The position numbers and the translations under genes are program-made. The notes beneath the pieces were generated by a model. It ran no database searches and was not told the DNA's origin. It worked only from the letters and a program-made list of their open reading frames with translations. A DNA stretch of 64,000 bases, taken from NCBI RefSeq assembly GCF_028737325.1, contig NZ_JAQZCH010000001.1:416732-480731 (forward strand). Reading direction: 5' to 3'. The stretch is from Microbacterium thalli. GTDB taxonomy: Bacteria > Actinomycetota > Actinomycetes > Actinomycetales > Microbacteriaceae. Every line of letters starts with the position of its first letter. The first letter of the stretch is position 1. Shown piece by piece: positions 761 through 51,667 of this stretch.

Positions 761-766
761 GCCTTT

Positions 767-6950: not shown

Positions 6951-6979
6951 GGCCGCGAACCGCGAGGAAGGAGGACTCG

Positions 6980-7624: not shown

Positions 7625-7684
7625 CGTGCGGCCCGTGCCGGTGCGGATCGGTGCACCTCGGGGCCGGGGTGGGATGCTGGCCGC

Positions 7685-8011: not shown

Positions 8012-8618
8012 CGCTGTCGTCTTCGACCTTCTGACCGCGCTCGTCGACTCGTGGAGTCTGTGGGACTCCGCCGCAGGAAGCCAGGAGCAGGGGCGTCGCT
8101 GGCGCGGTCGCTACCTCCAGCTCACCTACGGCGCCGAGACGTACCGGCCCTACGAAGATCTCGTGATGGAGGCGGCTCAACTCGAAGACGTTGCGGCGGA
8201 CAGTGTCGAGACTCTGGTGCGCCGTCGGGATTCGCTGAGCGCATGGCCCGAAGCGCCCGCAGTCCTTCGACGGTTGCAGGGAAAGGTCAGGACGGCGGTC
8301 GTGACCAACTGTTCGGAGGAGCTGGGCATGCGCGCCGCCATATCGTTGCGACACGAGTTCGACGTGTTCGTCACGTCGGAGCGAGCCGGCTATTACAAGC
8401 CCAGGCCTGAGCCGTACCGACTCGCCCTATCTGAACTGGGTATAGCGCCGGAACGGACGCTGTTCGTCGCGGGATCTCGCTACGACATCCCGGGTGCCGG
8501 GGGAGTGGGTATGCCGGTTTGGTGGCACAACCGCATCGGGATGGATCGAGGAGATCTTCCGGCACCGCTCTTCGAAAGCAGCACGCTCGAATCCCTCCCG
8601 GCCGCCGCCCTGAGCTGA
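8001..8618 (+). CDS. HAD-family hydrolase (haloacid dehalogenase type)
   Basis: 205-residue cytosolic HAD-superfamily protein. Motif I is VVFDLLTAL with nucleophile Asp9; the second acidic residue of the phosphatase motif DxD is replaced by leucine, as in 2-haloacid dehalogenase-like members. Motif II is VVTNCSEE and the motif III lysine is in YYKPRPEPY; motif IV is weak (FVAGSRYDIPGA). Substrate unknown. It overlaps the DUF1990 remnant by 11 bp on the same strand. Confidence 0.8.
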   Translation: MRYDAVVFDLLTALVDSWSLWDSAAGSQEQGRRWRGRYLQLTYGAETYRPYEDLVMEAAQLEDVAADSVETLVRRRDSLSAWPEAPAVLRRLQGKVRTAVVTNCSEELGMRAAISLRHEFDVFVTSERAGYYKPRPEPYRLALSELGIAPERTLFVAGSRYDIPGAGGVGMPVWWHNRIGMDRGDLPAPLFESSTLESLPAAALS

Positions 8619-8651
8619 TCGCAGGCGCTGACCGACGCTCGGCGCGGGATC

Positions 8652-8671
8652 ACTAGTTGTGGTTCACTAGT
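8652..8671 (+). promoter_or_regulatory. Paired ACTAGT repeats ahead of the PadR gene (possible operator)
   Basis: The palindrome ACTAGT occurs at 8652-8657 and again at 8666-8671, each preceded by C, with starts 14 bp apart, immediately before the GTG at 8675. PadR regulators usually autoregulate through promoter-proximal repeats, so this is a plausible binding site. No Shine-Dalgarno is visible between it and the GTG, which suggests a leaderless transcript. Confidence 0.45.
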
Positions 8672-8674
8672 ACC

Positions 8675-9016
8675 GTGTCACGCATACAGGCCCGACAGGA
8701 CGCTCAGCTCACTCGCGCTGCGCTTCCTCTGCTTGTGCTGCACCTCATCCAACGGCGCGAGTCGTATGGCTATGAGCTGGTCGAGCGCCTGAACGCGCTC
8801 GGGCTCGAGGCAACCACCGGGCTCGTCTACCCCGTGCTCAACCGTCTCGAGCGAGACGCACTCGTCTCCACCTCCTCTCGGCCGTCCCCCAGCGGCCCGC
8901 CGCGAAAGTACTTCTCCCTCACCGACGCGGGCGTCGCGGCGCTGGCCATCGCGATGTCGCAGTGGCAACAAATGGCCAGTGCTGTATCCGGAACACTCGA
9001 GTCCGCAGAGGAATGA
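8675..9016 (+). CDS. PadR-family transcriptional regulator
   Basis: Winged-helix regulator of 113 residues with the PadR core: LTRAALPLLVLHLIQRRESY, GYELVERLN, then the recognition and wing region TGLVYPVLNRLERDALV and GPPRKYFSLTDAG. GTG at 8675 is chosen because the family starts just before this helix; a TTG six codons upstream is possible but lies inside the repeat pair. Its stop overlaps the next gene, which encodes a membrane HAAS-type protein. PadR/HAAS pairs are common, the regulator controlling its membrane partner. Confidence 0.88.
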   Translation: MSRIQARQDAQLTRAALPLLVLHLIQRRESYGYELVERLNALGLEATTGLVYPVLNRLERDALVSTSSRPSPSGPPRKYFSLTDAGVAALAIAMSQWQQMASAVSGTLESAEE

Positions 9017-9546
9017 CCATGCCACACGCAGCTGTCGCGACACGTCCGCTCGGTATGCGGGAATCGATGTACTTGGCGCGTCTGGACTGGCATCTCGAAG
9101 GCGCCGTCTCCGCGGCCGAACGCAGGCGCATCCTTCGGTCGCTCCGTGAAGAAATCGCCGCCGACCCGAGACCCGCGGAAGTCGTGCTCGCTGATCTCGG
9201 CTCGCCGCGCGCCTTGGCTCTCCGTTATGGCGAGGGCGAAAGGCCGCGCCCGCTCTGGCAGATCGGGATACTCACCGCAGCAGCAGCGCTCCTGGCGTAT
9301 TGGGTGCTGTTCGGCGCGTTCACCGGGGGAATGCTCGCCGCGGTCGACAGCGCCGCGCCGATGAGAGCCGACGCGACCTTCCTCTTCGTGCCTGTCATGG
9401 CCTTCTCGGACGACGAAGGCATCGGCATCGGATGGTCCGGCGGCTGGGAATGGCTCATCGTGCCATTCGTCATCGTCACCCTCGCGCTGTTGCTCGGTGC
9501 GCGCGTTTGGCGGCTCTTCCGTCGGGATTCGAACCCGATGCCCTGA
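9013..9546 (+). CDS. HAAS (DUF1700-like) domain membrane protein
   Basis: 178 residues. The N-terminal half (LARLDWHLEGAVSAAERRRI, then a short helix pair ending LADLGSPRALALRYGEG) matches the small HAAS signalling domain usually encoded next to PadR regulators. It is followed by two hydrophobic spans (about residues 79-108 and 148-166) with a loop rich in aspartate and glycine. ATG at 9013 overlaps the padR stop; ATG at 9019 is possible. Probably a membrane partner or target of the PadR protein; no enzymatic motif seen. Confidence 0.75.
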   Translation: MTMPHAAVATRPLGMRESMYLARLDWHLEGAVSAAERRRILRSLREEIAADPRPAEVVLADLGSPRALALRYGEGERPRPLWQIGILTAAAALLAYWVLFGAFTGGMLAAVDSAAPMRADATFLFVPVMAFSDDEGIGIGWSGGWEWLIVPFVIVTLALLLGARVWRLFRRDSNPMP

Positions 9547-9574
9547 CCACGGTTACGCCGGTATCGACTCCGGT

Positions 9575-10600
9575 TCAGTACACGCGGTTGCGCACGAGCT
9601 CGAGCGCGGCGGCTTCGTACCAGCTGCCGGCGGCCGGACCGCCGTTGCAGACGCCATCGCTCTCGCCGGGGCGCTTGATCCACAGCAGCGCGTCGAGGGC
9701 GGTGCCGTCGGTGATCGCACGCGGCGTGGTGCCGAGGCCCACGTTGCTGGGGTTGCACCAGTCGCCCTGCCAGCCGCGACCGTTGCGCGACGTGTCGATG
9801 ACGTAGCGCGGGCCGCCGCCCAGCAGCATCCGCACGCGTTCGGCGTAGTCGCGCTCGACCGCGGTGGGCGAGAAGTTCGACACGTTGGTCGCGAAGCCTC
9901 GCGCCTCGAGCACGCCGGCCTCGTACAGCCGCTGCGCCATCGTCTCGGGCGGGATCCAGTTGCCGTTGCCCGCGTCGATGTAGGCGGGGATGCCGGCGGC
10001 GGTGAGTGCCCGCACGGCGTCGCGGATGTACGTGGTGCGGGCTCCCTGGCCCTCGCATTCGCCGAGCATCGAGAGCGCGTCGGGCTCGACGATGACGGCG
10101 GATGCCGTTCCGCGCAGCGTCTCGGCGATGAGCCGGGTCCACGGTCCGTACCGTTCCGGAGTCAGACCGCCCTGCGAATGTGCGGTGCAGTCGCGCGCCG
10201 GGATGGCGTACAGGACGAAGGTCGCGACGCGGTTCTGCTGCGCCGCCGCCTGCGTCTCGGCGCGGAGCACGCGCACGAGGTCGGCGTCGCTGTACCACTC
10301 GCCGAGCCAGGTCGCTGTGGGGGTCTGCGCGATGACGTCGAACGAGGCGGCGACGTCGAAGCGCCCCTGGGCGCGCGCGTCGGCCGCGGCCTGGGCCGCC
10401 GCGGAGTAGGTCGGCAGAGCGGCGCCGCGCGCGAGCGGGTTCGGCGCGGCCGCGGTTGCCGCCGCGGGTGCCGCGCCCGCGGCATCGGGGACGGCGTCCT
10501 CGGCCCCGGCGGCCGCGCCGGTGGCATGGACGAGCCCGAGGGCGACGGCCAGGGAGACGATGGCCGCAACGGCAGGCGGCATCCGGAGACTGCGTGGCAT
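9575..10600 (-). CDS. Secreted glycoside hydrolase family 6 (cellulase-type)
   Basis: 341 residues with a Sec signal peptide (hydrophobic residues about 10-30, then an Ala-rich low-complexity linker to about 60). The catalytic domain shows GH6 landmarks: FVLYAIPARDC, the acid-bearing AVIVEPDALSM, YIDAGNGNW, and near the end DTSRNGRGW and LLWIKRPGESDG. GH6 enzymes are inverting beta-1,4-glucanases (endoglucanase or cellobiohydrolase); the mode cannot be told here. No carbohydrate-binding module is present. GAGGA precedes the ATG. The gene stands alone, with its 3' end facing the HAAS gene. Confidence 0.9.
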   Translation of the reverse strand: MPRSLRMPPAVAAIVSLAVALGLVHATGAAAGAEDAVPDAAGAAPAAATAAAPNPLARGAALPTYSAAAQAAADARAQGRFDVAASFDVIAQTPTATWLGEWYSDADLVRVLRAETQAAAQQNRVATFVLYAIPARDCTAHSQGGLTPERYGPWTRLIAETLRGTASAVIVEPDALSMLGECEGQGARTTYIRDAVRALTAAGIPAYIDAGNGNWIPPETMAQRLYEAGVLEARGFATNVSNFSPTAVERDYAERVRMLLGGGPRYVIDTSRNGRGWQGDWCNPSNVGLGTTPRAITDGTALDALLWIKRPGESDGVCNGGPAAGSWYEAAALELVRNRVY

Positions 10601-10662
10601 GGGGGATCCTCGCTCGAGACGTGACCCGAGGATACAAGGCGCTCCCGCGAAACAGGCGGGAA

Positions 10663-12603
10663 TTACCCGATCAGGCTCGGTTGCAGGTCGCGCAGCGTCC
10701 GGGCGTGCGTCATCCGGATCACGCCGATCGCCGCCAGCGCCAGTGCGCCGAGCATCCAGGCGAACAGCACCGCGAGGTCGAGGCTCACCCGCCCGAGGTC
10801 GCCGCCGTACATCCACTGGCGCATGCCGTCGACGACGTATCCCATCGGCAGCACGTGATGCAGGGCGGCGAGCGGTGCCGGCAGCGTCTGCCACGGGAAC
10901 GTACCGCCGGCGGTGACGAGCTGCACGACCATCAGCACGAGACCGAGGAACTGCCCCACCGATCCGAGCCAGACGTTGAGAGCGAGGATGATCGCGGCGT
11001 ACGTGAACGATGCGGTCAGCAGCATCCCGAGGGTTCCGGCGGGGCTCGAGAAACGGAACCCCAGTGCGAGCGAGAGCACACCGAAGAGCACGACCATTCC
11101 GACGCTGCCGAGCAGGGCGGGGGTGAGCCATCCGGCGACGGTGACGCGGACGGGGGAGCGCAGCGCCGTCACCGCTCGCCGTGAGATCGGCTTGACGATG
11201 AGGAAGAGCGCGTAGATGCCGATCCAGCCCGCGAGGGCGGCGAAGAAGGGCGCGAGTCCTGCGCCGTAGTCGCCGGCGCTGGCGAGGTTGCCCGAGTCGA
11301 CCGACACCGGGTCGGAGATCGTCGCGGCCTGCTGGTCGCGCAGGTCGGCCGATGCGTCGGGCAGCTGCGCGACGCCCGCCTCGAGCCCGTCGCGCAACGT
11401 GACCAGACCGGCGTTGAGTGTGCCGAGCCCCGACGCGAGCTCGTGCGCGCCGCCGTCGAGCTGTGCGGCACCGGTGGCGGCGTCGCCCGTCGCCGCGGCG
11501 AGCTGCCCGGCACCCTGCGAGACGGATGCCGCGCCGTCGGCGGCCTGCGATGCTCCGGACGACAGCTGGTTCGCGCCCGCGCTGACCTGTGCCGCACCGG
11601 CGGCGAGCCGGTCGACCTGGGCGACAGCGTCGTCGACGCGGGCGGCGCCGGTCTGCAGCCGCTCGCCGATCGGGTCGAGCCGGCTGAGCACGTCGGCGAT
11701 CTGCGTCTGGTCGAGGCCGCGCTCGCCGAGCACGCGAGCGATGTCGTCGCGCACCTGCGGCAGCTGACCGATCGCCTCGTCGACGGCGCTGCCCGCGCGG
11801 TCGGCGTAGCTCGCGATCTGCGCCGTGCCGTCGGACACCTGGGCGGCGCCGGTCGCGAGGTCGGCCGACCCGTCGGCGACCGCGCGCGTGCCGGTCGCGA
11901 GCTGGGCCGAGCCGTCGGCGAGGGTCGCGGCACCGTCGCGCAGCTGCGTCGCGCCGGCCGCGAGCTGCGCGGTGCCGTCGGCGAGCGTGGTCGCACCGGT
12001 GGTGGCCTGGTCGGCGCCGTCGACGAGCTGCGTCGCGCCGTCGGCGGCGGTGACGAGCTGGCCGCGGATGTCCGAGATGCCGGTGAGCAGCCGCGACGCG
12101 GCTTCGCGGCCCACCAGCTGCGCCACCGAGGTGCGGATGCGCTCGACTGCTTGCGAGCCGATGGATGAGGCGAGGTAGTTGTTGGCGTCGTTCGTCGCCA
12201 GTGCGAGGGTGGCCTGGTGCGGGCTCGAGCCGGCGGCACTGGTGAGCGCGGCCGAGAAATCGGCGGGCAGGGTCACCGAGAAGTCGACGTCGCCGGTGCG
12301 CAGCGCTTCGCGCGCCTCGGCGGCATCCATCCGCTGCCACGCGAACGAGCCGTCCTCGATCAGCTGATCGGCGACCTGCGAGCCGTAGTCGACGGTGTCG
12401 CCGCCGTCCGGCTGCGCACCCGCGTCGAGGTCGACCAATGCGACCGGGATCTCGGCGAACTTGCCGTACGGGTCCTGGTTGGCCCACAGGTACAGGCCGC
12501 CGTACAGCACGGGCACGAGCATCAGTGCGATGAGGGCGACCACCGACATCCGGGTCGCCGTCAGGCGGCGCAGTTCGGCGGAGATGAGGGCGGGGATCTT
12601 CAA
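10663..12603 (-). CDS. YhgE/Pip-family ABC-2-type membrane protein
   Basis: 646 residues. One N-terminal span (about 18-36, ending LYGGLYLWANQDPYG), a long extracellular region, and five or six C-terminal spans from about residue 440. Residues about 190-400 contain many degenerate copies of a short L-x-x-G-A-x-Q-L-A-D-G repeat, typical of the family and probably an elongated helical stalk. Family members include phage-infection receptor-like and ESX-type proteins; the substrate is unknown. TTG at 12603 with GAAGG upstream is chosen because it overlaps the stop of the preceding gene; no other start fits before the first helix. Last gene of the TetR operon. Confidence 0.85.
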   Translation of the reverse strand: MKIPALISAELRRLTATRMSVVALIALMLVPVLYGGLYLWANQDPYGKFAEIPVALVDLDAGAQPDGGDTVDYGSQVADQLIEDGSFAWQRMDAAEAREALRTGDVDFSVTLPADFSAALTSAAGSSPHQATLALATNDANNYLASSIGSQAVERIRTSVAQLVGREAASRLLTGISDIRGQLVTAADGATQLVDGADQATTGATTLADGTAQLAAGATQLRDGAATLADGSAQLATGTRAVADGSADLATGAAQVSDGTAQIASYADRAGSAVDEAIGQLPQVRDDIARVLGERGLDQTQIADVLSRLDPIGERLQTGAARVDDAVAQVDRLAAGAAQVSAGANQLSSGASQAADGAASVSQGAGQLAAATGDAATGAAQLDGGAHELASGLGTLNAGLVTLRDGLEAGVAQLPDASADLRDQQAATISDPVSVDSGNLASAGDYGAGLAPFFAALAGWIGIYALFLIVKPISRRAVTALRSPVRVTVAGWLTPALLGSVGMVVLFGVLSLALGFRFSSPAGTLGMLLTASFTYAAIILALNVWLGSVGQFLGLVLMVVQLVTAGGTFPWQTLPAPLAALHHVLPMGYVVDGMRQWMYGGDLGRVSLDLAVLFAWMLGALALAAIGVIRMTHARTLRDLQPSLIG

Positions 12604-40978: not shown

Positions 40979-42019
40979 ATGTTCCCTCGTCGCACCGCGG
41001 CTGCCGCCGCGACGACCCTCGTCGCCGCCCTCGCTCTCACCGCCTGCGGCGGCACCGGCTCACCGAGCGGCTCGTCCACTCCCGAAGGTGAAGCCGGCAG
41101 CGCCGGATACCCCATCGTCATCGAGCACGCGCTCGGCACGACCACGATCCCCGAGAAGCCCGAGCGCGTGGCGACGGTCCAGTGGGCGAACCACGAGGTT
41201 CCGCTGGCGCTCGGCGTCGTCCCCGTCGGCATGGCCGCCGCGAACTTCGGCGATGACGACGGCAACGGCCTGCTGCCCTGGGTCGAGGACAAGCTCGAGG
41301 AGCTCGGCGGCGAGACCCCCGTGCTCTTCGACGAGACCGACGGCATCGACTTCGAGGCCGTCGCCAGCACCGAGCCCGACGTCATCCTCGCCGCCTACTC
41401 GGGCCTCACGCAGGAGGACTACGACACGCTGAGCGAGATCGCTCCCGTCGTGGCCTACCCGGAGTCGGCGTGGGCCACCTCGTGGCGCGACGTGATCGAG
41501 TTCAACGCCATGGGCATGGGCATGGCGGAGGAGGGCGAAGAGCTCGTCTCGACGCTCGAGGACGAGATCGAGGCCGCCGCGTCGAAGCACCCCGAGCTCG
41601 CCGGCACGTCGGCGATGTTCATGACGCACGTCGACCCGTCCGACCTCAGCACGGTGAACTTCTACACCTCGCACGACACGCGTGCCGCGTTCTTCGAGGA
41701 CCTCGGCCTGTCGACGCCCACGAGCGTCGAGGAGGCGTCGAGTGACAGCGAGAAGTTCTCGGGCAGCGTGAGCTCGGAGCAGGTCGACGTGTTCGCCGAC
41801 GTCGACATCATCGTCACGTACGGCGACGAGGAGCTCGTCCGCACGCTCGAGGGCGACCCGCTGCTGTCGCAGATGCCCGCCGTCGCGAACGGCGCGATCG
41901 TCTCGCTCGACGGCGCCGGCCCGCTCGGCACCGCGGCGAACCCCACGCCGCTGTCGATCTCGTACATCCTCGACGAGTACCTCGCTCTGCTCGCGGAGGC
42001 CGCTGGAAAGTCCCAGTGA
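40979..42019 (+). CDS. Iron-siderophore ABC transporter substrate-binding lipoprotein
   Basis: 346 residues, lipobox LTAC with Cys23. A class III (FepB/FhuD-type) binding fold: TTTIPEKPERVATVQWANHE, EPDVILAAYSGLTQEDYDTL, and ATLE-like helices to the end. It captures a ferric siderophore outside the membrane; whether hydroxamate or catecholate cannot be told. First gene of a four-gene operon behind a DtxR-type box. Confidence 0.92.
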   Translation: MFPRRTAAAAATTLVAALALTACGGTGSPSGSSTPEGEAGSAGYPIVIEHALGTTTIPEKPERVATVQWANHEVPLALGVVPVGMAAANFGDDDGNGLLPWVEDKLEELGGETPVLFDETDGIDFEAVASTEPDVILAAYSGLTQEDYDTLSEIAPVVAYPESAWATSWRDVIEFNAMGMGMAEEGEELVSTLEDEIEAAASKHPELAGTSAMFMTHVDPSDLSTVNFYTSHDTRAAFFEDLGLSTPTSVEEASSDSEKFSGSVSSEQVDVFADVDIIVTYGDEELVRTLEGDPLLSQMPAVANGAIVSLDGAGPLGTAANPTPLSISYILDEYLALLAEAAGKSQ

Positions 42020-43056
42020 CACCAGTTCTTCCTGCCGGTTCGGGCGTCGCCGTCGTGCGGCGCCCGAACCGCGTTCGCGCCGCCTGGCTGATCGCGCTCG
42101 TCGCCGTGACCGTCGGGCTGTGCGGGCTGTCGTTCGCCGTCGGCTCGCGCACGGTGCCGTGGGACGAGATCGTCGCCGCGCTCGGCGGCGCCCAAGAGAA
42201 CCTCGACCAGGCGGCGGTCGGCCAGCGCATTCCCCGCACCGCGCTCGCGCTGCTCGTCGGCGCTGCGCTCGGTGTCGCCGGTGGCGTGATGCAGGGCGTC
42301 ACGCGCAATCCCCTCGCCGATCCCGGCATCCTCGGCGTCAACATGGGTGCCTCGCTCGCGATCGTCATCGGGATCGCCTGGTTCGGCCTCGCCTCGGCGA
42401 GCGGATACATCTGGGTCGCCATCCTCGGCGCCGGGATCGCGGCGGCCTTCGTCTACGCCGTCGGCTCCCTCGGCCGCGGGGGAGCGACCCCCCTCAAGCT
42501 CGCCCTCGCCGGCGCGGCGACCTCGGCCGCCCTGGTGTCGTTCGTCACCGCCATCTACCTGCCGCGCGGCGACATCGCCGACAACGTGCGCTCGTGGCTC
42601 ATCGGCGGTGTGGGCGGCGCGACGTGGCCGTCGGTGTCGCTCGTCGTGCCCTTCCTGCTCGTCGGCTTCGCGGTCAGTCTGCTCTCGGCCCGCAGCCTCA
42701 ACACCCTGGCGCTCGGCGACGACCTCGCCGCGGGCCTCGGCGAGCGGGTGGCCGTCGCGCGAGCCGTCGCCGCACTCGGCGCCGTCCTGCTCTGCGGCGC
42801 TGCGACCGCCATCGCCGGACCCATCGCGTTCGTCGGCCTCCTCGTGCCGCATGCCTGTCGCCTGCTGGTCGGCGTCGACCATCGCTGGCTGCTGCCCTTC
42901 TCCGCCGTCGCCGGCGCCGCACTCGTCGTCGCCTCGGATGTCGTCGGCCGGGTCGTCGCGCGTCCCGCCGAGATCGACGTGGGCATCATCACCGCGCTCG
43001 TGGGTGGGCCGTTCTTCGTCGCGATCGTCCGTCGCCAGAAGGTGAAGTCGCTGTGA
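42016..43056 (+). CDS. Siderophore ABC transporter permease (FecCD family), first
   Basis: 346 residues, about nine or ten spans. FecCD signatures RIPRTALALLVGAALGVAGG, MQGVTRNPLADPGILGVNMG and GPIAFVGLLVPHACRLLVG are clear. GTG start overlaps the binding-protein stop. It forms the transmembrane channel with the second permease. Confidence 0.93.
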   Translation: MTPVLPAGSGVAVVRRPNRVRAAWLIALVAVTVGLCGLSFAVGSRTVPWDEIVAALGGAQENLDQAAVGQRIPRTALALLVGAALGVAGGVMQGVTRNPLADPGILGVNMGASLAIVIGIAWFGLASASGYIWVAILGAGIAAAFVYAVGSLGRGGATPLKLALAGAATSAALVSFVTAIYLPRGDIADNVRSWLIGGVGGATWPSVSLVVPFLLVGFAVSLLSARSLNTLALGDDLAAGLGERVAVARAVAALGAVLLCGAATAIAGPIAFVGLLVPHACRLLVGVDHRWLLPFSAVAGAALVVASDVVGRVVARPAEIDVGIITALVGGPFFVAIVRRQKVKSL

Positions 43057-44099
43057 CCGCCGTATCCGCCGAAACCCCCGTCGCCGTCGTCGCAGACCTG
43101 CGGCGTCGGCGCGGCCGTCGTCGTCGCGCCGTCATCGTCGGCCTCGCGATCGCGGTCGTGGCCGCGCTCGCGCTGAACGTCATGGTCGGTCAGACCTTCT
43201 CCTCACCGGCCGAGGTGATGGCGGTCGTCCTCGGACAGGATGCCGGGGGCGCCACCTTCACGATCGGGCGGCTGCGTCTGCCGCGCGCGCTGCTCGGCGC
43301 CATCGTCGGCCTCAGCTTCGGGCTCGCCGGCGTCGCCTTCCAGACCATGCTGCGCAATCCGCTCGCGAGCCCCGACATCATCGGCATCAGCGCCGGGTCG
43401 AGCGCGGCAGCCGCGTTCGCGATCGTCATGCTGGGCCTCAGCGGGCTCGCCGTCTCGGTTTTCGCCATCGTGGCGGGGCTCGTCGTCGCGCTGCTGATCT
43501 ACCTGCTGTCGTCGCGATCGGGATCGGCCGGCACCCGCCTCATCCTGATCGGCATCGGCTTCGCCGCGATGCTCGACGCGCTGACGCAGTACGTGCTCTC
43601 GCAGGCCGGTCAGTGGGACCTGCAAGAGGCGCTCCGCTGGCTGAACGGCAGCCTGAACGGCGCCACCTGGAGCGACGTCGTCACGGCCGGCGCCGCGCTT
43701 CTCGTGCTGGCCCCGCTGCTGCTCTCCCGCTCGCGTGACCTCGCGGCACTGCAGCTCGGCGACGACACCGCCGCGGCCATCGGCACGCGTGTCGCGCGTA
43801 CGAGACTGATCGTCGTGGTCGCCGCGGTCAGCCTCATCGCCTTCGCCACCGCGACGACGGGACCCATCGCGTTCGTCGCGTTCCTCGCCGGACCGATCGC
43901 GGCGCGCGTCATCGGCCCGCGCGGCTCGCTCCTGGTGCCGAGCGCCCTGATCGGTGCGCTGCTCGTACTGGTGGCCGACTTCGTGGGTCAGTACGCCCTC
44001 GGCATCCGCTACCCCGTCGGCATCGTGACCGGCGTGCTCGGCGCGCCGTACCTGCTGTACCTCATCATCCGCACCAATCGCGCCGGAGGTTCCCTGTGA
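43053..44099 (+). CDS. Siderophore ABC transporter permease (FecCD family), second
   Basis: 348 residues with the same family marks (RLPRALLGAIVGLSFGLAG, QTMLRNPLASPDIIGISAGS, GPIAFVAFLAGPIAARVIG). An arginine-rich cytoplasmic N-terminus precedes the first span. GTG start overlaps the previous stop; its own stop overlaps the ATPase gene. Confidence 0.93.
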   Translation: MTAVSAETPVAVVADLRRRRGRRRRAVIVGLAIAVVAALALNVMVGQTFSSPAEVMAVVLGQDAGGATFTIGRLRLPRALLGAIVGLSFGLAGVAFQTMLRNPLASPDIIGISAGSSAAAAFAIVMLGLSGLAVSVFAIVAGLVVALLIYLLSSRSGSAGTRLILIGIGFAAMLDALTQYVLSQAGQWDLQEALRWLNGSLNGATWSDVVTAGAALLVLAPLLLSRSRDLAALQLGDDTAAAIGTRVARTRLIVVVAAVSLIAFATATTGPIAFVAFLAGPIAARVIGPRGSLLVPSALIGALLVLVADFVGQYALGIRYPVGIVTGVLGAPYLLYLIIRTNRAGGSL

Positions 44100-44902
44100 C
44101 CGACGATCACACCCTGCTCGCCGAGGATCTGACCGTCGGCTACGGCGACCGCACCATCATCGAGGGTCTCAGCCTGCGCATCCCGTCGGGTCGCATCACC
44201 GCCATCGTCGGACCGAACGCGTGCGGCAAGTCCACGCTGCTGCGCTCGATGTCGCGTCTGCTGACGCCCCGGGCCGGACACGTCCTGCTCGACGGCGCCG
44301 CCGTACACCGGATGCCGGCGAAGGAGCTCGCCCGCACGCTCGGGCTGTTGCCCCAGTCGCCGACGGCACCCGAGGGCATCACCGTCTCCGACCTCGTCGG
44401 GCGCGGACGCAACCCGCATCACGGCATCTTCTCGCGGTGGACGACGGCCGACGACGAGGCGGTGGCCGAGGCGCTCGCCGCGACCGAGACCCTCGAGCTC
44501 GCCGACCGCGCGGTCGACGAGCTGTCGGGCGGGCAGCGGCAGCGCGTGTGGATCGCTATGGCGCTGGCGCAGCGCACCGATCTGCTGCTGCTCGACGAGC
44601 CGACGACGTTCCTCGACGTGAGCCACCAGATCGAGGTGCTCGACCTGCTCACCGACCTCAACCGGAACCGCGGCGTCACCGTCGTCATGGTGCTGCACGA
44701 CCTCAACCTCGCGGCCCGCTACGCCGACCACCTCGTCGCCATGCGCGAGGGCAGCATCGTCACCGCCGGGCCGGCCGAGCAGGTGCTCACCGCTGAGACG
44801 GTCGAAGCGGTGTTCGGCATCCGCAACGAGGTGATCACCGATCCGCGGTCCGGCAAGCCGCTGATGCTGCCCCTCGGGCGGTACCACGTCGACACGGCCT
44901 GA
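44096..44902 (+). CDS. Siderophore ABC transporter ATP-binding protein
   Basis: 268 residues. Walker A GPNACGKST (39-47), signature LSGGQRQRVWIAMALAQR, Walker B LLLLDEPTTFLD and the switch histidine in VMVLHDLNLAARYADH are all intact. FepC/FecE-type energy subunit of the operon. GTG start coupled to the second permease. Confidence 0.94.
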   Translation: MTDDHTLLAEDLTVGYGDRTIIEGLSLRIPSGRITAIVGPNACGKSTLLRSMSRLLTPRAGHVLLDGAAVHRMPAKELARTLGLLPQSPTAPEGITVSDLVGRGRNPHHGIFSRWTTADDEAVAEALAATETLELADRAVDELSGGQRQRVWIAMALAQRTDLLLLDEPTTFLDVSHQIEVLDLLTDLNRNRGVTVVMVLHDLNLAARYADHLVAMREGSIVTAGPAEQVLTAETVEAVFGIRNEVITDPRSGKPLMLPLGRYHVDTA

Positions 44903-44945: not shown

Positions 44946-46430
44946 TCATCGGGCCTCCGGCGCCGATCGCGAAGAACGCCGTCGAACGAGCAACGCGCCG
45001 GAGCCGACAGCTGCCAGGCCCGCGAGCGCGATCGCCGCCGTGCGTCCCGGCGTCGCGCCGGACGGCGGAAGAGCGTCCACCACCGCCGGGTGCGGCACGA
45101 TCGTGCCGGCCGGGGGATCGTCCGGGGACCAGGGCGCGGCCGTCAGACGGATGGATGCCTCGCCGGACAGGTCCTGGATGCGATCGCGCTCGTCTCGGCG
45201 GACGACGCCGGAGATGTCGATGCTGGAACCCGGATCGACGCGACCGACCGAGATGGTCTCGTCGAGACCGGCGACCGACCGGGGGCCGGCCACGATGTCG
45301 CTGTCCCGTCGCACCTCGAGAGTCGGTGTCTCGGTCGCATCCGTCGTCCGTGTCGACAGGGTCGCGTAGACCGTCAGCTCGCGCTCGGCGTGGTTCGTGA
45401 GCCGGGTCGTCCACGCGGTCTCTTCGCCCGGCGCGGGCATCATGGCCGAGATGCGGTCGGGGTCGGCGCTCATGCCCGATGCGGGCGACTCGACGGGCAC
45501 CGCGACGGGAACGTGATACCCGCCTGGGTCCGCGTCGGTGCTCTCGCGTAGCTCGAGGGCCTCGTGCAGCGGCTCGGGCCACGAGGCGACCGCCGCCGCG
45601 ATGAGCGCGACGAGCGCGAGGTGCCCGAGGTCGCGGCCCCGCGGTCGAGCGTGCGCGGCTCGCGGACGCGTCGTCGTGCCGGCGCCCGCAACGGCGACGG
45701 CGACGAGGCCGAAGGTGAGCGATCCGGCGCTCAGCTCGTCCCGCGCCTCGTGCTCGACTCTCGCGCAGGTCGCACAGAGCGCACGGTGCCGGCGGTACTC
45801 GCGAAGCTGGCGGGTGCCCGCCGTGCCGACGATCACGCGAGCGAGGACGTCGGAGGACACCCCGCAGGACAGGTCGCTCAACTCGATGAAGCACCGGATG
45901 TACCCCACCTGCAGGTGACTGCGGGCGCGGTGCGCGATGGTCGACACGTGCGAGGCGGTCAACCCGAGTTCGCTGCCGACCTCGCGTGCGGGTCGGCGAT
46001 CGATCAGCACCGCGATCGCGACACGGCGGGTCGTCTCGTCGAGCGAGTCGAGCGCGCGGCGGGCGAGGTCGATCGAGCCGTCGAGGGCGAACGGGGCTTC
46101 CGGGTCGACGGGGACCCGCTCGAGCACATCATCGGGCACGGCGGTGGTCCGCCGGCTGTCTCGGTGGTGACGATCGACCATGTTCCGCACGGTCGTGAAC
46201 AGGTACGCGCGCAGGTTGTCGATCTCCGCGATGCGCGGCGACCCCAGGGTGGCGACGACGAGGAACGCCTCGGCCACGGCGTCGCCCGCGGCCTCGGGAT
46301 CGGCGCCGCGGGCGATGGCGAAGCGGCGCAGTGAATCGGCGTCGTTCGCGTAGACGCCCGCCAGGCGCTCGGCGGCGGTCTTCGTCAGACGGTCATGCCA
46401 ATTGTGGCGAACGGTGTGATCGATTGCCAT
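44946..46430 (-). CDS. Sigma-70 factor fused to anti-sigma zinc motif, membrane span and extracellular domain
   Basis: 494 residues in one chain. Residues about 30-95 are sigma region 2 (DPEAAGDAVAEAFLVVATLG, NLRAYLFTTVRNMVDRHHRD) and 122-178 region 4 (EVGSELGLTASHVSTIAHRA). An anti-sigma zinc motif follows: His215-x3-Cys219-x2-Cys222 in RRHRALCATC. Hydrophobic stretches lie at 236-251 and 268-285; the basic segment between them suggests that the second is the true span. Residues about 286-463 are extracellular, then LPPSG (454-458), a span (464-483) and RRR. The outer domain and this ending resemble the LAxTG protein at 49792-50406. Divergent from surface module 2, which it probably controls. 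ATG at 46430 is chosen; ATG at 46448 is possible. Confidence 0.85.
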   Translation of the reverse strand: MAIDHTVRHNWHDRLTKTAAERLAGVYANDADSLRRFAIARGADPEAAGDAVAEAFLVVATLGSPRIAEIDNLRAYLFTTVRNMVDRHHRDSRRTTAVPDDVLERVPVDPEAPFALDGSIDLARRALDSLDETTRRVAIAVLIDRRPAREVGSELGLTASHVSTIAHRARSHLQVGYIRCFIELSDLSCGVSSDVLARVIVGTAGTRQLREYRRHRALCATCARVEHEARDELSAGSLTFGLVAVAVAGAGTTTRPRAAHARPRGRDLGHLALVALIAAAVASWPEPLHEALELRESTDADPGGYHVPVAVPVESPASGMSADPDRISAMMPAPGEETAWTTRLTNHAERELTVYATLSTRTTDATETPTLEVRRDSDIVAGPRSVAGLDETISVGRVDPGSSIDISGVVRRDERDRIQDLSGEASIRLTAAPWSPDDPPAGTIVPHPAVVDALPPSGATPGRTAAIALAGLAAVGSGALLVRRRSSRSAPEAR

Positions 46431-46514
46431 ATAGCTACTCAAACACATGACGCCGCGCTTCGACACCCGGTCGCAGACGCGCGTCAGACCATGCCCCGAA
46501 CGAAAGAACTGGTT

Positions 46515-47135
46515 ATGACTGCAACCGAATCCACTCGTGGCTCCAAGCGTTTCCTCGTCGCCGGAGGTTCCCTCCTGGCGGTCGCGGGCATGCTCACGGC
46601 AGCCGCTTTCACCGACTTCGCCAACCTGAACCTGGGCGGTGACTCGGGTATCGGCGGTGACAACACGCGCTTCAACATCCAGGTGGTGGGCACCGACCCC
46701 GAGACGAACGAGCCGATCCCCGGCACCTGGCAGGAGGCCAACACGGCCGAGGGTGTGGCGATCGCGGTTCCGGGCGCCGACCTCATCACCCCCGGCGACA
46801 CCGTCTCGGTCGAGATCCCGTTCCGCAACGAGAGCCCCGCCCTGGGTGCTGACCTCGCCTTCACGCTGCAGGACCGCGCCGGCTTCGTCTCCGACGCCGA
46901 GTTCGCGCAGGCCGTGCGTTACACGATCGCGCTCGACGGCACCGAGATCGTCGCGAACGCCACGCAGGAGGCCGTGGCCGACCTCGACCTCGGCGTCTAC
47001 GCCGCGGGCGAGGAAGGCGTGCTCTCGGTGAGCATCACGCTGCCCGACCAGGGGTCGGTCGAGGCGAACAACGCCCTCCAGGGCAAGACCACGTACGTGC
47101 AGGCGCACTTCGACGCCAGCTCGGTCCAGCCCTGA
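46515..47135 (+). CDS. SipW-type alternate-signal exported protein (module 2, first)
   Basis: 206 residues. Alternate signal peptide with SLLAVAGMLTAAAFTDFANL, the F-T-D form cut by SipW-like peptidases. The mature part is an acidic beta-sandwich without cysteine (VEIPFRNESPALGADLAFTL, ending YVQAHFDASSVQP), like TasA/CalY-type subunits. It is first in its cluster and is followed by a strong hairpin, which suggests that it is made in excess of the downstream proteins and is the main subunit. ATG at 46515 is used; ATG at 46491 is in frame. Confidence 0.8.
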   Translation: MTATESTRGSKRFLVAGGSLLAVAGMLTAAAFTDFANLNLGGDSGIGGDNTRFNIQVVGTDPETNEPIPGTWQEANTAEGVAIAVPGADLITPGDTVSVEIPFRNESPALGADLAFTLQDRAGFVSDAEFAQAVRYTIALDGTEIVANATQEAVADLDLGVYAAGEEGVLSVSITLPDQGSVEANNALQGKTTYVQAHFDASSVQP

Positions 47136-47141
47136 CCCCTG

Positions 47142-47171
47142 CCCGGGGGTGCGGTTCACCGCACCCCCGGG
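47142..47171 (+). terminator. Strong hairpin inside surface module 2
   Basis: Perfect 14-bp stem (CCCGGGGGTGCGGT with its complement) around two unpaired bases, in the 64-bp gap between the first and second genes of the module. No U-run follows (TTCCCC). It could be a partial terminator, an mRNA-stabilising 3' end, or both. Confidence 0.7.
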
Positions 47172-47199
47172 TTCCCCGACCCGAGATGGAACGAGACCG

Positions 47200-47808
47200 A
47201 TGATCCCCCACCGCAGCGCTCGCCTCAGGCTCAGCCTCGCCGCCGGTGCCCTCCTCAGCGTCGGCGCGCTCTTCACCGCCGCCACCTTCACCGACGCCGC
47301 CGACGTGCACGTCTTCCTCGACGGCTCGCAGAACACGTTCGAGATCCGAACCGCCGGCTCCGTCCGCGACGGGTGGGTACCCTCCGAGGACCAGTGGCAG
47401 CCCGGCCGCCCCGCCCCGTACGAGATCGCCCTCGAGGAGGGAACGGTGCTCGCTCCCGGCGGCTCGATCTCGCTTCGTATCGCCGCTCAGAACGCGAGCC
47501 CGCGCCTCGCCGGCACCCTGTCGCTGTCGATCGTCGATCCCGACCCTCGCGGCGACGAGATCGATCCCGACACCGGCCGCTTCGTCGAGCTCTTCGACCA
47601 GCTGCAGTTCACGGTGCGCGACGGCGACCGCACCCTCATGGACCGCGTGCCCGCGCCCGAGCTGACGACCTACACGTGGGACGACGCGTTCGAAGCGGGC
47701 GAGCACCGCCTGCTCGACGTGCGCATCGATCTGCCCGACACCGTGGACAACCGCTGGCGAGGCGCCGGCACCGGCGTCCAGTTCCAGTTCGAAGGAGAGA
47801 ACCGATGA
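47200..47808 (+). CDS. SipW-type alternate-signal exported protein (module 2, second)
   Basis: 202 residues. Signal region RLSLAAGALLSVGALFTAAT then FTDAADV matches the alternate type. The mature part is beta-rich and acidic (SISLRIAAQNASPRLAGTLS, then a strand ending RIDLPDTVDNRWRGAGTGVQ). The pattern of an N-terminal strand, a charged loop and a late DLPD motif is shared with the first protein (ITLPDQGS), so they are probably distant paralogues. ATG at 47200, coupled by overlap to the next gene. Confidence 0.78.
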   Translation: MIPHRSARLRLSLAAGALLSVGALFTAATFTDAADVHVFLDGSQNTFEIRTAGSVRDGWVPSEDQWQPGRPAPYEIALEEGTVLAPGGSISLRIAAQNASPRLAGTLSLSIVDPDPRGDEIDPDTGRFVELFDQLQFTVRDGDRTLMDRVPAPELTTYTWDDAFEAGEHRLLDVRIDLPDTVDNRWRGAGTGVQFQFEGENR

Positions 47809-48383
47809 GGCGCACGATACGCGTGGCCGAGCCGGTGAAGCTCGTGCTGGCCGGGGGCCTCGCGCTCGGTCTTCTCGTCGGCGCGACGAGCGCAGCTTTC
47901 AGTGATCAGGCCGACGTGTCGTTCGCCCCCATCGGCGCAACCTACGATCTCGGCTTCGTCGCCGCCGACGGGTCGGTCGCACAAGGCAATCCGGAGCCGT
48001 GGCCCATCGACACGGGCGAGATCGGCCCCATCCCCCGGATCGGCGAGGGCGATCCCGCCCGAGTGGAGGTGAAAGTCAAGAACGCGGGCACGGTGGATGC
48101 CGGCGACGTCACGTTCTCGCTCGCCTCGCTGCTCCCGCCGGTCCCCGACGGCGACGGTGTCGTGCGCGACGCGCTCGACGTCACGCTCGCATCGATCTGG
48201 GTCGACGGCGTCGAGGTCGCGACGCGCGTTCCGGCGGCCGAAGCGGTCGCCACGATTCCCGACTGGCCCGCGGGCGGCATCCGCACGGTCGTCGTCGAGC
48301 TCGTGTATCTCGATCAGATCCCCAGCCCGTACTACTACGGCCGCGATGTGCTTCTCGGCCTCACCGCGACGGGAGCGGCCTGA
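47805..48383 (+). CDS. SipW-type alternate-signal exported protein (module 2, third)
   Basis: 192 residues. Signal KLVLAGGLALGLLVGATSAA with FSDQADV behind it. The mature domain contains ARVEVKVKNAGTVDAGDVTF and a late tyrosine run (SPYYYGRDVLLGL). No cysteine. AAGGAGAG precedes the ATG, which overlaps the previous stop. Probably another component of the same surface assembly. Confidence 0.77.
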   Translation: MRRTIRVAEPVKLVLAGGLALGLLVGATSAAFSDQADVSFAPIGATYDLGFVAADGSVAQGNPEPWPIDTGEIGPIPRIGEGDPARVEVKVKNAGTVDAGDVTFSLASLLPPVPDGDGVVRDALDVTLASIWVDGVEVATRVPAAEAVATIPDWPAGGIRTVVVELVYLDQIPSPYYYGRDVLLGLTATGAA

Positions 48384-48430
48384 CGCCCCGGCCATCATCC
48401 CCGACCCGTCCCTCGACCCAAGGAGCTGGA

Positions 48431-49795
48431 ATGACGCACTCCGTCAGAACGCGACGCCGTGCTCGGTACGGCGCGCTCGCCGCACTCGGGGCACTCGCGG
48501 TCTCCGCGGCCGTCGCGGCGCCCGCGCCCACCGAGGCCCGCTACACGGATACGGCCACCGCGGCCGCCGAGACCTACACGATGCCCGCGTCGTACCAGGC
48601 GGTGTCGAGCCAGTTCACCTCGACCTCGGCGGCACTCTCGGACGGGTGGGTCTGGGTCTGGGGCTTCAAGGGCCAGGGAATGGGGGGCAACGGCGTGCAG
48701 AACGACAACGATCGTTCCCCTCAGCCCGTACACGGCCTCAACAACGTCGTGAAGGTCGTCGGCGCGTCGGACATCAGCGAGACGCCCGGAACCTTCGGCG
48801 CGCTGACGGCCGACGGCGAGGTGTACACCTGGGGCCTGAACAAGCTCGGGCGCCTCGGCATCGGCACGACGTCGGGGAACAACGACTTCCGGGCGACGCC
48901 GCAGAAGGTCGAGTTCCCCGATGACGAGAAGGTCATCGACCTGGGGTCCATGCGCGCGACGATGGCGGCTCTCACCGAGAGCGGCAAGGTCTACACGTGG
49001 GGCTCGGGTCAGTACGGCCAGGCCGGCAACGGGTCCACCGTCGAGAACCGCGGGCCGCACTCGCCGTACCTCGTGATCGACAACGTGCACTCCATGCACG
49101 TCGGCCAGCGCCTCACCTGGGTCATCACGCGAGAGAACCGCGTCTTCTGGTGGGGCCGCGCCGTGTCCGGTGAGGCCGGCAACGGCACGACCGCGACCGT
49201 GAACAATCCGAACCCCTTGGAGCTGCCGCAACTGAACGCGCTCGTCGAGGGCTGCGAGGGCCCCGCCGTGCCGGTGCATTCGCCGGAAGACACCTGCTCC
49301 GTCGTCGAGATCACATCGTCGCGGCAGGCGGGCGCCGCTCTGACGCGCGACGGCGTGGTGCACACGTTCGGGCAGACCGCGAACGGTCAGATTGGCCGCA
49401 TCGCGACGGCGCAGACACGCGTCCAGGTGCATCCGATCAACATCGACGAACCCGTCGCGCGCCTGTCCGCCGGCAACTACCACTTCACCGCGCTCACGAA
49501 GTCCGGTGGGGTATGGGGCTGGGGAAGCAACGCCAGCTGGGCTGCCACCGGGAACATCCGACCCGACGGCAGCACGGGTCAGGGCACGACCAACGCCACG
49601 ACCCCGGTCCGCCTGCCACTCACCGACATCGTGATGATCGGCGGCTCGCGCGACACGAGCTACGCGACCCAGTCCGACTCCGTCCTGATCGGATGGGGTG
49701 ATGGGCGCCAGGGTGCGATCCCGGGGAACGAGACGAACAGGCGCACGTTCACGCCGCTCGCCCTGCCCGGCATCCGTGTGGAGGTGACCGAGTGA
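48431..49795 (+). CDS. Exported RCC1-repeat (beta-propeller) protein
   Basis: 454 residues. The N-terminus (ALGALAVSAAVAAPAPTEAR followed by YTDTAT) fits the same alternate signal type as its neighbours. The rest is a chain of about seven RCC1-like repeats, seen as GWVWVWGFKGQG, GEVYTWGLNKLGRLG, GKVYTWGSGQYGQAG, NRVFWWGRAVSGEAG, GVVHTFGQTANGQIG, GGVWGWGSNASW and VLIGWGDGRQG, which should close into a propeller. Two cysteines lie in EGCEGPAVP and EDTCSVVE. Likely a binding or adhesive part of the surface structure. Stop overlaps the LAxTG gene. Confidence 0.82.
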   Translation: MTHSVRTRRRARYGALAALGALAVSAAVAAPAPTEARYTDTATAAAETYTMPASYQAVSSQFTSTSAALSDGWVWVWGFKGQGMGGNGVQNDNDRSPQPVHGLNNVVKVVGASDISETPGTFGALTADGEVYTWGLNKLGRLGIGTTSGNNDFRATPQKVEFPDDEKVIDLGSMRATMAALTESGKVYTWGSGQYGQAGNGSTVENRGPHSPYLVIDNVHSMHVGQRLTWVITRENRVFWWGRAVSGEAGNGTTATVNNPNPLELPQLNALVEGCEGPAVPVHSPEDTCSVVEITSSRQAGAALTRDGVVHTFGQTANGQIGRIATAQTRVQVHPINIDEPVARLSAGNYHFTALTKSGGVWGWGSNASWAATGNIRPDGSTGQGTTNATTPVRLPLTDIVMIGGSRDTSYATQSDSVLIGWGDGRQGAIPGNETNRRTFTPLALPGIRVEVTE

Positions 49796-50406
49796 ACATC
49801 CGCAAGGTGACGGCGGCACTGTGGGCGACGGTCGTCGCGAGCGGTCTCGTCGCGGCCTCCGCCACGCCGGCGGTCGCCACCCAGGAGCTCATCGAGGCGA
49901 CGCCCGCGACGACGACGATCGTCGCTCCCGCCCCCGGCCATTCCCAGGACTGGCAGGTGGACGTCCGGAACACCACGACGCAGACGCTGCCGGTGGTGCT
50001 GACGATCGAAGGGGACTCCGCGCAGCTGTTCGGCGGCTCGCATCCGATCCACGTCGAGATCGTCGACGACTCCGGCGAGGTGGTGGTGTCCGGCGCCGCA
50101 CCTTCCGTGCTCGGTGCGACGGTCGAGCTCGACGCGCTCGGCGCGCACGAGGAGCGTCGATACACCGCCCGCGTGGCGCTTCCGCGCAGCGCCGGCAACG
50201 AATACCAGGGCGCGAGCGGCACGCTCGACCTGAGCTTCGTCGCCTCGGCTGAGGCGACGACTCCCGAGACCGGCCCGAGCCCCGACGACGCTCTCGCCCA
50301 CACCGGTGGCTCCGGGACGACGCTGGCTCTCATCGCGGCGACCGCGCTCGGCATGCTCACGCTCGGCGCCGTGCTGGCTGCACGCCGACGGAAGGAACAC
50401 GCATGA
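49792..50406 (+). CDS. LAxTG-anchored surface protein
   Basis: 204 residues. A normal Sec signal (VVASGLVAASATPAVATQE), one beta-sandwich domain (WQVDVRNTTTQTLPVVLTIE, HPIHVEIVDDSGEVVVSG), a Thr/Pro linker, sorting motif LAHTG (168-172), membrane span and RRRKEHA tail. LAxTG is the class E sortase motif of high-GC actinobacteria, so the protein should be linked to the cell wall. No sortase gene lies in the window. It could be the anchor of the assembly formed by its neighbours. The domain resembles the extracellular part of the sigma fusion protein at 44946-46430. Confidence 0.82.
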   Translation: MNIRKVTAALWATVVASGLVAASATPAVATQELIEATPATTTIVAPAPGHSQDWQVDVRNTTTQTLPVVLTIEGDSAQLFGGSHPIHVEIVDDSGEVVVSGAAPSVLGATVELDALGAHEERRYTARVALPRSAGNEYQGASGTLDLSFVASAEATTPETGPSPDDALAHTGGSGTTLALIAATALGMLTLGAVLAARRRKEHA

Positions 50407-51080
50407 CTCAGACACGACACGCCTTGCGCGCACAGCGTGCTCGGCGACGAAGCACCCGGGGCGCCGCTCTGAGGCTCGCGGCGGCGGCCGGCATGCTCGC
50501 CTTCGGCGCGATCTCGATCAGCGCAGCCGCGCTCGCCGACTCGGCGACGCTGGGGCTCGGCGCGAACGGCATCGGATTCGAGGGCCGGTTCGCGATCGGA
50601 ACGGTCTCGCTCGACGGCACCGTCGAGCAGGTCATCGCGGACGGCCCCGCGGAGCGGCCGATCCCCGAAGCGGCACTGCTGGTCCCGGGTGGTTCGATCT
50701 CGATCGAGATCCCGGTGTTCAACAACACCGAGCGCCTCGCAGCCGACACGACGGTGACGGTGGTCGCCGCTGGAGGAGACGGCGCCGTGGCGGACGTCCC
50801 CAACATCACGCCCTACCTGCGCTTCACCGCCGTCGACCCGGCCGGGAACGAGGTGTTCTCGGGAGCCACATGGGACGAGGCGACGGGCTCGCTCGGGGTG
50901 CTCGCGCCGCGCGGCGATCTGCCCCTCACCGACGGCGACGCGTTCGCGCCGGGCGCCGAGGGCAGCGCGCAGACCGTGGTGCTGACGATCGACTATCTCG
51001 ATGAGCCGGGCACGGAGGAGCTCAACGGCGGCCTGTCCGCTCTCTCCGTCCGGTTCGACGCGACGTCGGTGAGGCCGTGA
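50403..51080 (+). CDS. SipW-type alternate-signal exported protein (module 2, fourth)
   Basis: 225 residues. A long basic N-terminus (RAQRARRRSTRGAALR), hydrophobic stretch and ALADSATLGLG form an alternate signal peptide. The mature beta-rich domain has SISIEIPVFNNTERLAADTT and ends LSVRFDATSVRP, close to the end of the first module protein (HFDASSVQP), which supports common origin. ATG overlaps the LAxTG stop; its own stop overlaps the signal peptidase gene. Confidence 0.77.
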   Translation: MTQTRHALRAQRARRRSTRGAALRLAAAAGMLAFGAISISAAALADSATLGLGANGIGFEGRFAIGTVSLDGTVEQVIADGPAERPIPEAALLVPGGSISIEIPVFNNTERLAADTTVTVVAAGGDGAVADVPNITPYLRFTAVDPAGNEVFSGATWDEATGSLGVLAPRGDLPLTDGDAFAPGAEGSAQTVVLTIDYLDEPGTEELNGGLSALSVRFDATSVRP

Positions 51081-51667
51081 CCACTCGGCGCGCTTCGCGT
51101 CGGCCCAGTGTCGCCGATCGTTCGGCGCCGCTGGGCTGGCGCGTCTTCGGGATGCTGCGATCCGGCATCCTCTCGCTGGCAGCGGTCATCGGCGCCGTGT
51201 GCATCGTCGCGTTCGTCGCCGCGCTCGCCTTCAACGTCCGTCCCGTCGCCGTGATCTCCGGGTCGATGGAGCCGCAGATCCCGGTCGGGGCGATGGTGTT
51301 CACCCGCACCGTGCCGGCGGGCGATGTCTCGCCCGGCGACATCGTCACCGTGCAGCGTCCGCGCAACCTCGGCCTTGTGACCCACCGGCTCGTCTCATCG
51401 GTGGAGCGCGAGCCGGGGGTCTACGAGTTCGTGCTGCGCGGTGACGCGAACGACACCGACGATCCCCAGCCGTACGCCGTCTCGACGGTCGGGCAGTACG
51501 TCCTCCACGTGCCCCTGCTGGGGTACCTCACGATCGGTCTGCAGAGCTCGAGCGGGCTGTTCATCGCGGGCGGCATCGCGCTCGTGCTCGTCGCCCTGTT
51601 CCTCCTCGACCCGGCGCGGCTTCGGGGCTCCGCGCAGACGCGTGAGACGGAGGAGGAGTCCGCCTAG
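51077..51667 (+). CDS. Signal peptidase I, SipW/ER type (module 2)
   Basis: 196 residues. Two spans (about 29-53 and 157-180) around a catalytic domain with Ser63 in ISGSMEPQIPVG and His103 in VTHRLV; no catalytic lysine. It is a paralogue of the enzyme at 40172-40855 but has a different N-terminus and acidic C-terminal tail (TRETEEESA). It should process the alternate-signal proteins of module 2. GTG start coupled to the previous gene. Confidence 0.88.
   Translation: MTTRRASRRPSVADRSAPLGWRVFGMLRSGILSLAAVIGAVCIVAFVAALAFNVRPVAVISGSMEPQIPVGAMVFTRTVPAGDVSPGDIVTVQRPRNLGLVTHRLVSSVEREPGVYEFVLRGDANDTDDPQPYAVSTVGQYVLHVPLLGYLTIGLQSSSGLFIAGGIALVLVALFLLDPARLRGSAQTRETEEESA

Follow-up and report, generated by a model that had tools for sequence, protein, structure and literature searches.

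A 494-residue reading frame in the genome of Microbacterium thalli raises the question of what a bacterium would sense, and what it would control, with a protein that joins a sigma factor, an anti-sigma zinc site, a membrane part and an outer domain in a single chain beside genes for surface proteins. The frame lies within a stretch of 64,000 nucleotides that was analysed as a whole (here called the window), and a preliminary description of that stretch had read the chain as a membrane-tethered sigma factor with its own sensor. The answer developed below is that the locus appears to hold a switch for a surface-fibre operon, built from what it controls.

Architecture of the fusion protein

The single frame with sigma regions 2 and 4 that had been proposed was confirmed: it runs from an ATG start over positions 44946 to 46430 of the reverse strand, has full-length homologues, and comprises, in order, a putative sigma factor, a ZAS anti-sigma site, a membrane part, an outer domain and a sorting signal. 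The sigma part (regions 2 and 4, residues 32 to 174 by Pfam limits; positions 45909 to 46337, reverse strand) matches TIGR02937 across residues 33 to 175 (53.3 bits; cut-off, 42.9) and Pfam Sigma70_r4 (25.6 bits, above the cut-off of 24.1); its score against Pfam Sigma70_r2 (21.3 bits) is below the cut-off of 24. With sigma-2 and sigma-4 as its only sigma domains and with the ECF model matched, it can be classed as a predicted ECF sigma factor, and it bears likeness to the structures of SigL, SigH and SigE.

The HxxxCxxC motif noted previously (His215, Cys219 and Cys222) is present as well, and all three residues are invariant in the eight aligned fusions (8/8), as is Cys189, which had been overlooked; the site thus takes the form C189-x25-H215-x3-C219-x2-C222 (positions 45765 to 45866, reverse strand). 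Because no Pfam zinc-finger family was matched by the window fusion, nor by any of 8 members at an E value of 0.01, its assignment to ZAS rests on the motif and its conservation: a Cys/His upstream of HxxxCxxC is what marks such domains, and the window fusion has this arrangement. An AlphaFold2 model built from an 8-row alignment (mean pLDDT, 69.8; pTM, 0.35) has helices up to about residue 253, a short helix at residues 269 to 282, nine beta strands at residues 320 to 433, and a C-terminal helix at residues 462 to 485 that falls in a tail with pLDDT below 50.

Distribution and phylogeny of the fusions

With the best 3 to 8 candidates scored per genome, near-full-length homologues occur in 7 of 366 genomes of the genus, the window genome among them (G000, G079, G121, G291, G292, G321 and G322, the last with two copies), and, under the same scoring, one further fusion was found outside the genus, at locus L133 of G391, among 398 sampled genomes of the family. 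The seven fusions that were aligned to the window protein are 26 to 40% identical to it. A search for homologues with the same order of domains, which the preliminary description had suggested as a check, thus found them in 7 other genomes, G391 included, and this recurrence excludes a frameshift that merged two genes. The reading of the chain as sigma factor, anti-sigma factor and sensor in one gains support accordingly, with no sign of a frameshift product.

Weaker similarity is far more widespread. At an E value of 1e-6, 130 of the 366 genus genomes yield some match (best 3 to 8 candidates per genome scored); many of these are ECF52-like proteins, matched only over residues 48 to 252 or thereabouts in frames of roughly 450 to 1100 residues, and others are plain sigma factors. 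A sample of 396 genomes of the order added three matches at E 1e-30 (again with the best 3 to 8 candidates scored), and in this sample no match at that level other than the window's own extends past model position 307 of 486, so that we found no full fusion beyond the family among these genomes. Although 1118 plasmid records match the protein, none covers 80% of the query, and the best 15 of the 1118 match in the sigma or sigma-ZAS portion alone.

A maximum-likelihood tree built from 39 sigma parts unites the fusions with two relatives that retain only the zinc site (support, 98/90), in a group with several long branches; the ECF52-like sigma parts form a separate group of their own (99/98). 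Since the rows of the latter were labelled by architecture and similarity and SCO4117 itself is not among them, these groupings place the sigma part of the fusions outside the ECF52 clade as represented here. The two zinc-site-only proteins, at L134 (G522) and L140 (G405), adjoin the same type of operon and end right behind the zinc site, lacking the membrane part, which indicates that the outer domain is not indispensable. Other truncated or soluble forms were encountered: at L085 (G321; positions 8909 to 9727), the full fusion is followed in tandem by a second sigma-ZAS copy whose remaining frame is lost, and the sigma proteins of L051 and L052 (both G008), 236 and 243 residues long, lack a membrane part and end in a zinc-like CxxC; they are another soluble single-chain type and form a separate clade in the tree.

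The divergent operon

The fusion gene had been described as divergent from a surface-protein operon, and seven frames do lie on the forward strand from position 46515 to 51667. They encode two TasA-like subunits (46515 to 47135 and 47200 to 47808), a third small exported-looking protein known from the gene call (47805 to 48383), a product that we take to be an RCC1-like repeat protein (48431 to 49795), a sortase-anchored subunit with an LAHTG signal (49792 to 50406), a third TasA-like subunit (50403 to 51080) and a signal peptidase I of the SipW or archaeal type (51077 to 51667). The TasA-like subunits that were tested matched no library family, and "TasA-like" is a label taken from the SipW context; the RCC1-like protein likewise matched no NCBIfam model at an E value of 0.001. 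All four of these proteins have counterparts at other loci. The anchored subunit matches the LPXTG_anchor domain (20.6 bits; cut-off, 15.9), and the peptidase matches TIGR02228 (71.7 bits; cut-off, 51.85), with a score against the Bacillus SipW model (52.5 bits) that is below that model's cut-off of 190.

Genes of such an operon adjoin the sigma gene at all nine fusion loci. The sigma gene is divergent at seven of them and lies upstream in the same direction at L087 and L088; at L083, the second copy in G322, the adjoining gene is a single TasA-like one, and no subunit or SipW match was found within the 20 kb read. A profile of the anchored subunit finds matches of 250 bits or more in 7 of the 366 genus genomes (best 3 to 8 candidates per genome scored), precisely those that have the fusion, and seven further genus genomes give weak matches of at most 55 bits. 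The operon also occurs beside the zinc-site-only sigma proteins of L134 and L140 and, at nine loci, with no sigma gene detected next to it, that is, with no tblastn match to the sigma sequences of this study at E 1e-4 within 12 to 20 kb (L151 within the genus; L141 to L148 in other genera, of which G412 accounts for three). The proposed tie between the fusion and the surface-protein operon is therefore supported by linkage, by co-occurrence and by a common upstream element, to which we return below.

Several neighbourhoods depart from the common layout. At L133 (G391; positions 79 to 8715), two TasA-like gene sets with near-identical matches lie in tandem beside the fusion, and the fusion and the anchored subunit carry the same LTLTG sorting motif. 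At L152 (G206; positions 7741 to 12275), a SipW-type operon that is more distant and includes an anchored protein (LASTG) begins with a plain 212-residue sigma factor that has no zinc site. Immediately behind it comes a second, separate protein of 224 residues, which has an N-terminal stretch and a hydrophobic segment, and this arrangement may be the fusion in split form. On the other side of the window's sigma gene, permease-like frames and an ABC ATPase (positions 42016 to 44902), presumably an iron-siderophore importer by their look, end beside the gene and are apparently unrelated.

The upstream element

A promoter-like element, TGTGAT-N17-CTCA, lies 100 nucleotides ahead of the first ATG of the operon (positions 46415 to 46441, forward strand), and its first half falls within the opening codons of the sigma gene. 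Its general form, TGTGAY-N17/19-CTCA, was first picked by eye and occurs 86 to 114 nucleotides ahead of the first operon start at all eight main-branch loci (seven fusions and L134). It was then tested on those same loci with a leave-one-cluster-out model that allowed spacers of 16 to 19 and omitted L088, which is near-identical to L087: at each of the eight, an equally good site turns up in just 0.5 to 2% of random 300-nucleotide windows of the same locus. The element is missing from eight of the nine operons that have no adjacent sigma gene (21 to 92% of random windows are as good), the exception being L145 (4%); on the outlying branch, L140 has only a near match (3.5%), and neither of the two copies of TasA-like gene 1 at L133 is preceded by the element (56% and 16%).

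We also considered a genome-wide regulon defined by this element and rejected it, because the exact pattern occurs too few times above chance in the window genome (10 copies, against 5 for a reversed control).

The C-terminal sorting signal

The C-terminal membrane span proposed previously needs revision: a hydrophobic helix is present, but rather than a plain span it is part of a sortase-type signal, in which an LPPSG motif (residues 454 to 458) is followed by a hydrophobic stretch and an RRR tail (positions 44949 to 45071, reverse strand). The same pattern of motif, hydrophobic stretch and basic residues ends all eight fusions with a readable C terminus, two of which (L087 and L088) are near-identical. 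The motifs are LPPSG in the window, LAETG (L083), LASTG (L084), LPVTG (L085), LAATG (L086, L087 and L088) and LTLTG (L133), six of the eight being exact instances of L[PA]xTG; with LPPSG and LTLTG counted as variants, the fusions would qualify by their C termini as candidate sortase substrates. The L082 fusion, which has LPETG and loses its frame afterwards, was left out of the count for that reason, and the truncated tandem copy beside L085 was excluded from the motif counts and kept in the sigma tree.

This pattern is absent from all 53 other sigma-ZAS-membrane proteins, drawn from best-match loci, whose C terminus is readable: Lxx[TS]G occurs within the last 60 residues of two of them, neither with a span and a basic tail, and five have a hydrophobic stretch close to the C terminus. 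Across the loci, 37 of 876 gene calls carry L[PA]x[TS]G close to the C terminus, anchored subunits included. Nine of ten further subunit-like proteins (L140 to L148 and L151) have a terminal LAx[TS]G, in one case LAASG, with a serine as in the LPPSG of the window fusion; the subunit-like frame of L151 has no such end. The putative sorting signal of the fusion, which the preliminary description had overlooked, is part of what is new here.

The window genome encodes one sortase of class E (G000:C5:396538) and two of class C. LAXTG is the motif used by class E enzymes (PMC5148588), and the LPPSG of the window fusion is consequently not an ideal class E substrate. The two class C genes (L100, at G000:C7:452708, and L101, at C5:140363) each adjoin an LPLTG pilin-like protein, and their surroundings are two likely pilus clusters.

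Origin of the outer domain

An outer domain behind the membrane part had been proposed, and it corresponds to the modelled beta domain, a nine-strand sandwich at positions 45132 to 45473 of the reverse strand. What had been missed is its relationship to the operon. When profiles of the outer domain (9 rows) and of the anchored subunit (7 rows, built without that of L133) were compared by hhalign with the sorting tails removed, they matched with a probability of 99.3% and an E value of 6.3e-20, against a best probability of 0.7% among 100 column-shuffled control profiles. The match is specific to the anchored subunit, because the three TasA-like subunit profiles from the same operons reach only 0.3 to 2.7%. 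A distant relationship also links the anchored subunit to TasA-like subunit 2 (hhalign, 97%), which makes the outer domain part of a wider fold group. Judging from these profiles, sensor and operon subunit are of common ancestry, the outer domain being a paralogue of the protein encoded at 49792 to 50406, and this homology is likewise part of what is new.

Predicted structures agree with this. The model of the anchored subunit also has nine strands, in an order similar to that of the outer domain (the two models were compared without superposition). Its likeness to TasA (5of1; Z score, 7.9; 3.1 A over 120 residues) and to archaeal CanA (9dlo; Z score, 9.0; 2.9 A over 110 residues) stays within or slightly exceeds what the tool rates as common, and there are many other beta-sandwich neighbours. 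The structural neighbours of the outer domain are generic beta-sandwiches (SIDT1, GOLD and MSP) and suggest no particular function. A phylogeny of the outer domains does not separate one acquisition from two.

Membrane segments and topology

Where a single membrane span had been described ahead of the outer domain, a hydrophobic segment does exist, but as two stretches (at about residues 237 to 253 and 269 to 285) flanking a basic loop, and in all nine fusions (window positions 45576 to 45722, reverse strand). With two hydrophobic stretches preceding the outer domain, the topology is ambiguous: were both to cross the membrane, the outer domain would lie on the inner side, contrary to its homology and its sorting signal. 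The second stretch is likely a membrane span, and the positive-inside rule favours it as the sole one. No N-terminal export signal is seen in the window fusion, and the internal hydrophobic stretches would need to serve instead. The region between them has features of its own: A259 and A261, an A-x-A after the first hydrophobic stretch, are invariant among the aligned fusions, and a basic cluster lies ahead of the second stretch in the window protein and its homologues, so that residues 254 to 268 look like a signal-peptidase site with a second signal-like start behind it.

Proposed mechanism and alternatives

We put at slightly better than even the chance that the fusion regulates the divergent SipW/TasA-like fibre operon in a dedicated and self-referential way, by sensing fibre anchoring. 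The ZAS zinc domain would keep the sigma part inactive within the same chain, which would span the membrane, display a copy of the operon's sortase-anchored subunit and end in a sortase-type signal. Outside, the copy would meet the partners of the real subunit (fibre subunits, sortase and wall) and would for that reason report on the assembly and anchoring of fibre subunits. Sortase or fibre loading may alter the state of the outer part, which would be cleaved or strained, whereupon intramembrane proteolysis would probably free the sigma part (the window genome has one match to an M50 site-2-type protease, at G000:C5:1385162); the freed sigma part would then transcribe the operon from TGTGAY-N17/19-CTCA. 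The loading state would in this way set operon expression, either up or down. What the sequences themselves show is the architecture, the homology, the pattern of the sorting signal, the linkage, the co-occurrence and the upstream element, and the steps from sequestration to transcription are a proposal built on them. A bolder form of the same idea, which we entertain tentatively and would expect to fail somewhat more often than not, is that the sigma factor is itself a sortase substrate, so that one chain would reach from a regulator of RNA polymerase through the membrane to the wall and anchoring or fibre loading would be read as operon transcription.

A simpler explanation would make the protein an ordinary membrane-fused ECF sigma factor like ECF48, ECF52 and ECF53, with an outer domain that senses a soluble ligand or a stress and a sorting signal that is an unused leftover. 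ECF groups that carry a fused ZAS and membrane extensions are already known, the window's LPPSG departs from LAXTG, and the L082 frame is lost directly after LPETG; even so, we regard this explanation as unlikely, since all eight readable fusions retain the motif, the hydrophobic stretch and the basic tail, although the seven aligned to the window protein share only 26 to 40% identity with it. The same retention of outer domain and sorting signal across widely diverged fusions weighs against a cytoplasmic signal received at the ZAS zinc site, such as redox-driven loss of zinc, with the membrane and outer parts merely positioning the protein. This we hold to be improbable, even though L134 and L140 retain the sigma factor and zinc site alone and soluble redox ZAS proteins are known (from the consulted part of PMC8999054).

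Given its homology to the anchored subunit, sorting signal included, the outer domain could also be a structural base subunit of the fibre, with a sigma part that is inert or that couples insertion to transcription just once. The zinc-site residues, however, are kept in all eight aligned fusions, the members scanned have recognisable sigma regions, and within the main branch the element ahead of the operon goes together with the gene, all of which makes a purely structural role very unlikely. As to an assembly artefact or a chance merger of two genes, nothing was found in its favour for the window copy, and the same-order homologues in 7 other genomes, G391 included, already refute it, so that we give it practically no weight.

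How Gram-positive bacteria match the production of fibre subunits to their assembly and anchoring is, to our knowledge, largely open, and a regulator that contains a copy of the anchored subunit would make that matching testable through one gene. If the proposed self-referential regulation is true, a sigma chain with a sortase signal would connect wall anchoring to transcription in a new way. A natural series for comparison exists in the fused loci (nine), the zinc-site-only loci (two) and the operons with no adjacent sigma gene (nine, three of them in G412).

Comparison with known systems

That a sigma factor and its membrane anti-sigma factor are normally separate, as the preliminary description had it, holds in general, yet fused chains form an established class of their own (PMC8999054, PMC5826349). 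In the consulted parts of these sources, ECF48, ECF52 and ECF53 are described as fused sigma and anti-sigma factors with a zinc domain and membrane helices, for which proteolytic release is proposed, and ECF48 and ECF53 as having a fused ZAS, one to two membrane helices and extensions of up to 400 residues (PMC8999054). The same source describes IutY of Pseudomonas putida (ECF243), a membrane anti-sigma factor fused to a sigma factor, for which stepwise proteolytic release has been shown (PMC8999054). The single-chain arrangement is thus not new in itself, because these four precedents have been described. Since the consulted descriptions of ECF48 and ECF53 mention neither a sortase signal nor a subunit-like outer domain, the fusion is set apart from them by description only. 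ECF52 (SCO4117 of Streptomyces coelicolor), also from Actinobacteria, resembles it, by the portion of its description consulted, in having an ECF sigma factor with a C-terminal zinc finger and a membrane region. In place of a visible proline-rich region, the fusion has a subunit paralogue and a sorting signal, and the carbohydrate-binding domain typical of ECF52 gave no Pfam match at an E value of 1 in the window fusion, which therefore appears to share the zinc finger and membrane region of the ECF52 architecture and not the whole of it.

IutY serves iron-starvation cell-surface signalling in a Gram-negative bacterium, and we know of no sortase in that system; as far as its consulted description goes, what it has in common with the window fusion is the union of anti-sigma and sigma factor in one chain. 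The RsgI anti-sigma factors, which share modules with their regulon, are closer in principle, and we know of no sorting signal on them. In those of Clostridium thermocellum, the sensing part recognises what the regulon handles (from the part of PMC12203970 consulted); unlike the fusion, RsgI is a separate anti-sigma protein and senses carbohydrate.

A subunit-derived sensor that ends in a sorting signal was not found among the open-access titles and beginnings of abstracts listed (subscription papers and preprints fall outside this coverage). What is new, as judged from the genomes compared, is the combination of an outer domain that is a predicted paralogue of an operon subunit, a sortase-type C terminus, co-occurrence with that subunit and a putative upstream element. 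With SipW/TasA fibre systems, the window operon has in common a SipW-type peptidase and small exported subunits, and to these the window locus adds a sortase-anchored subunit and a dedicated single-chain sigma factor.
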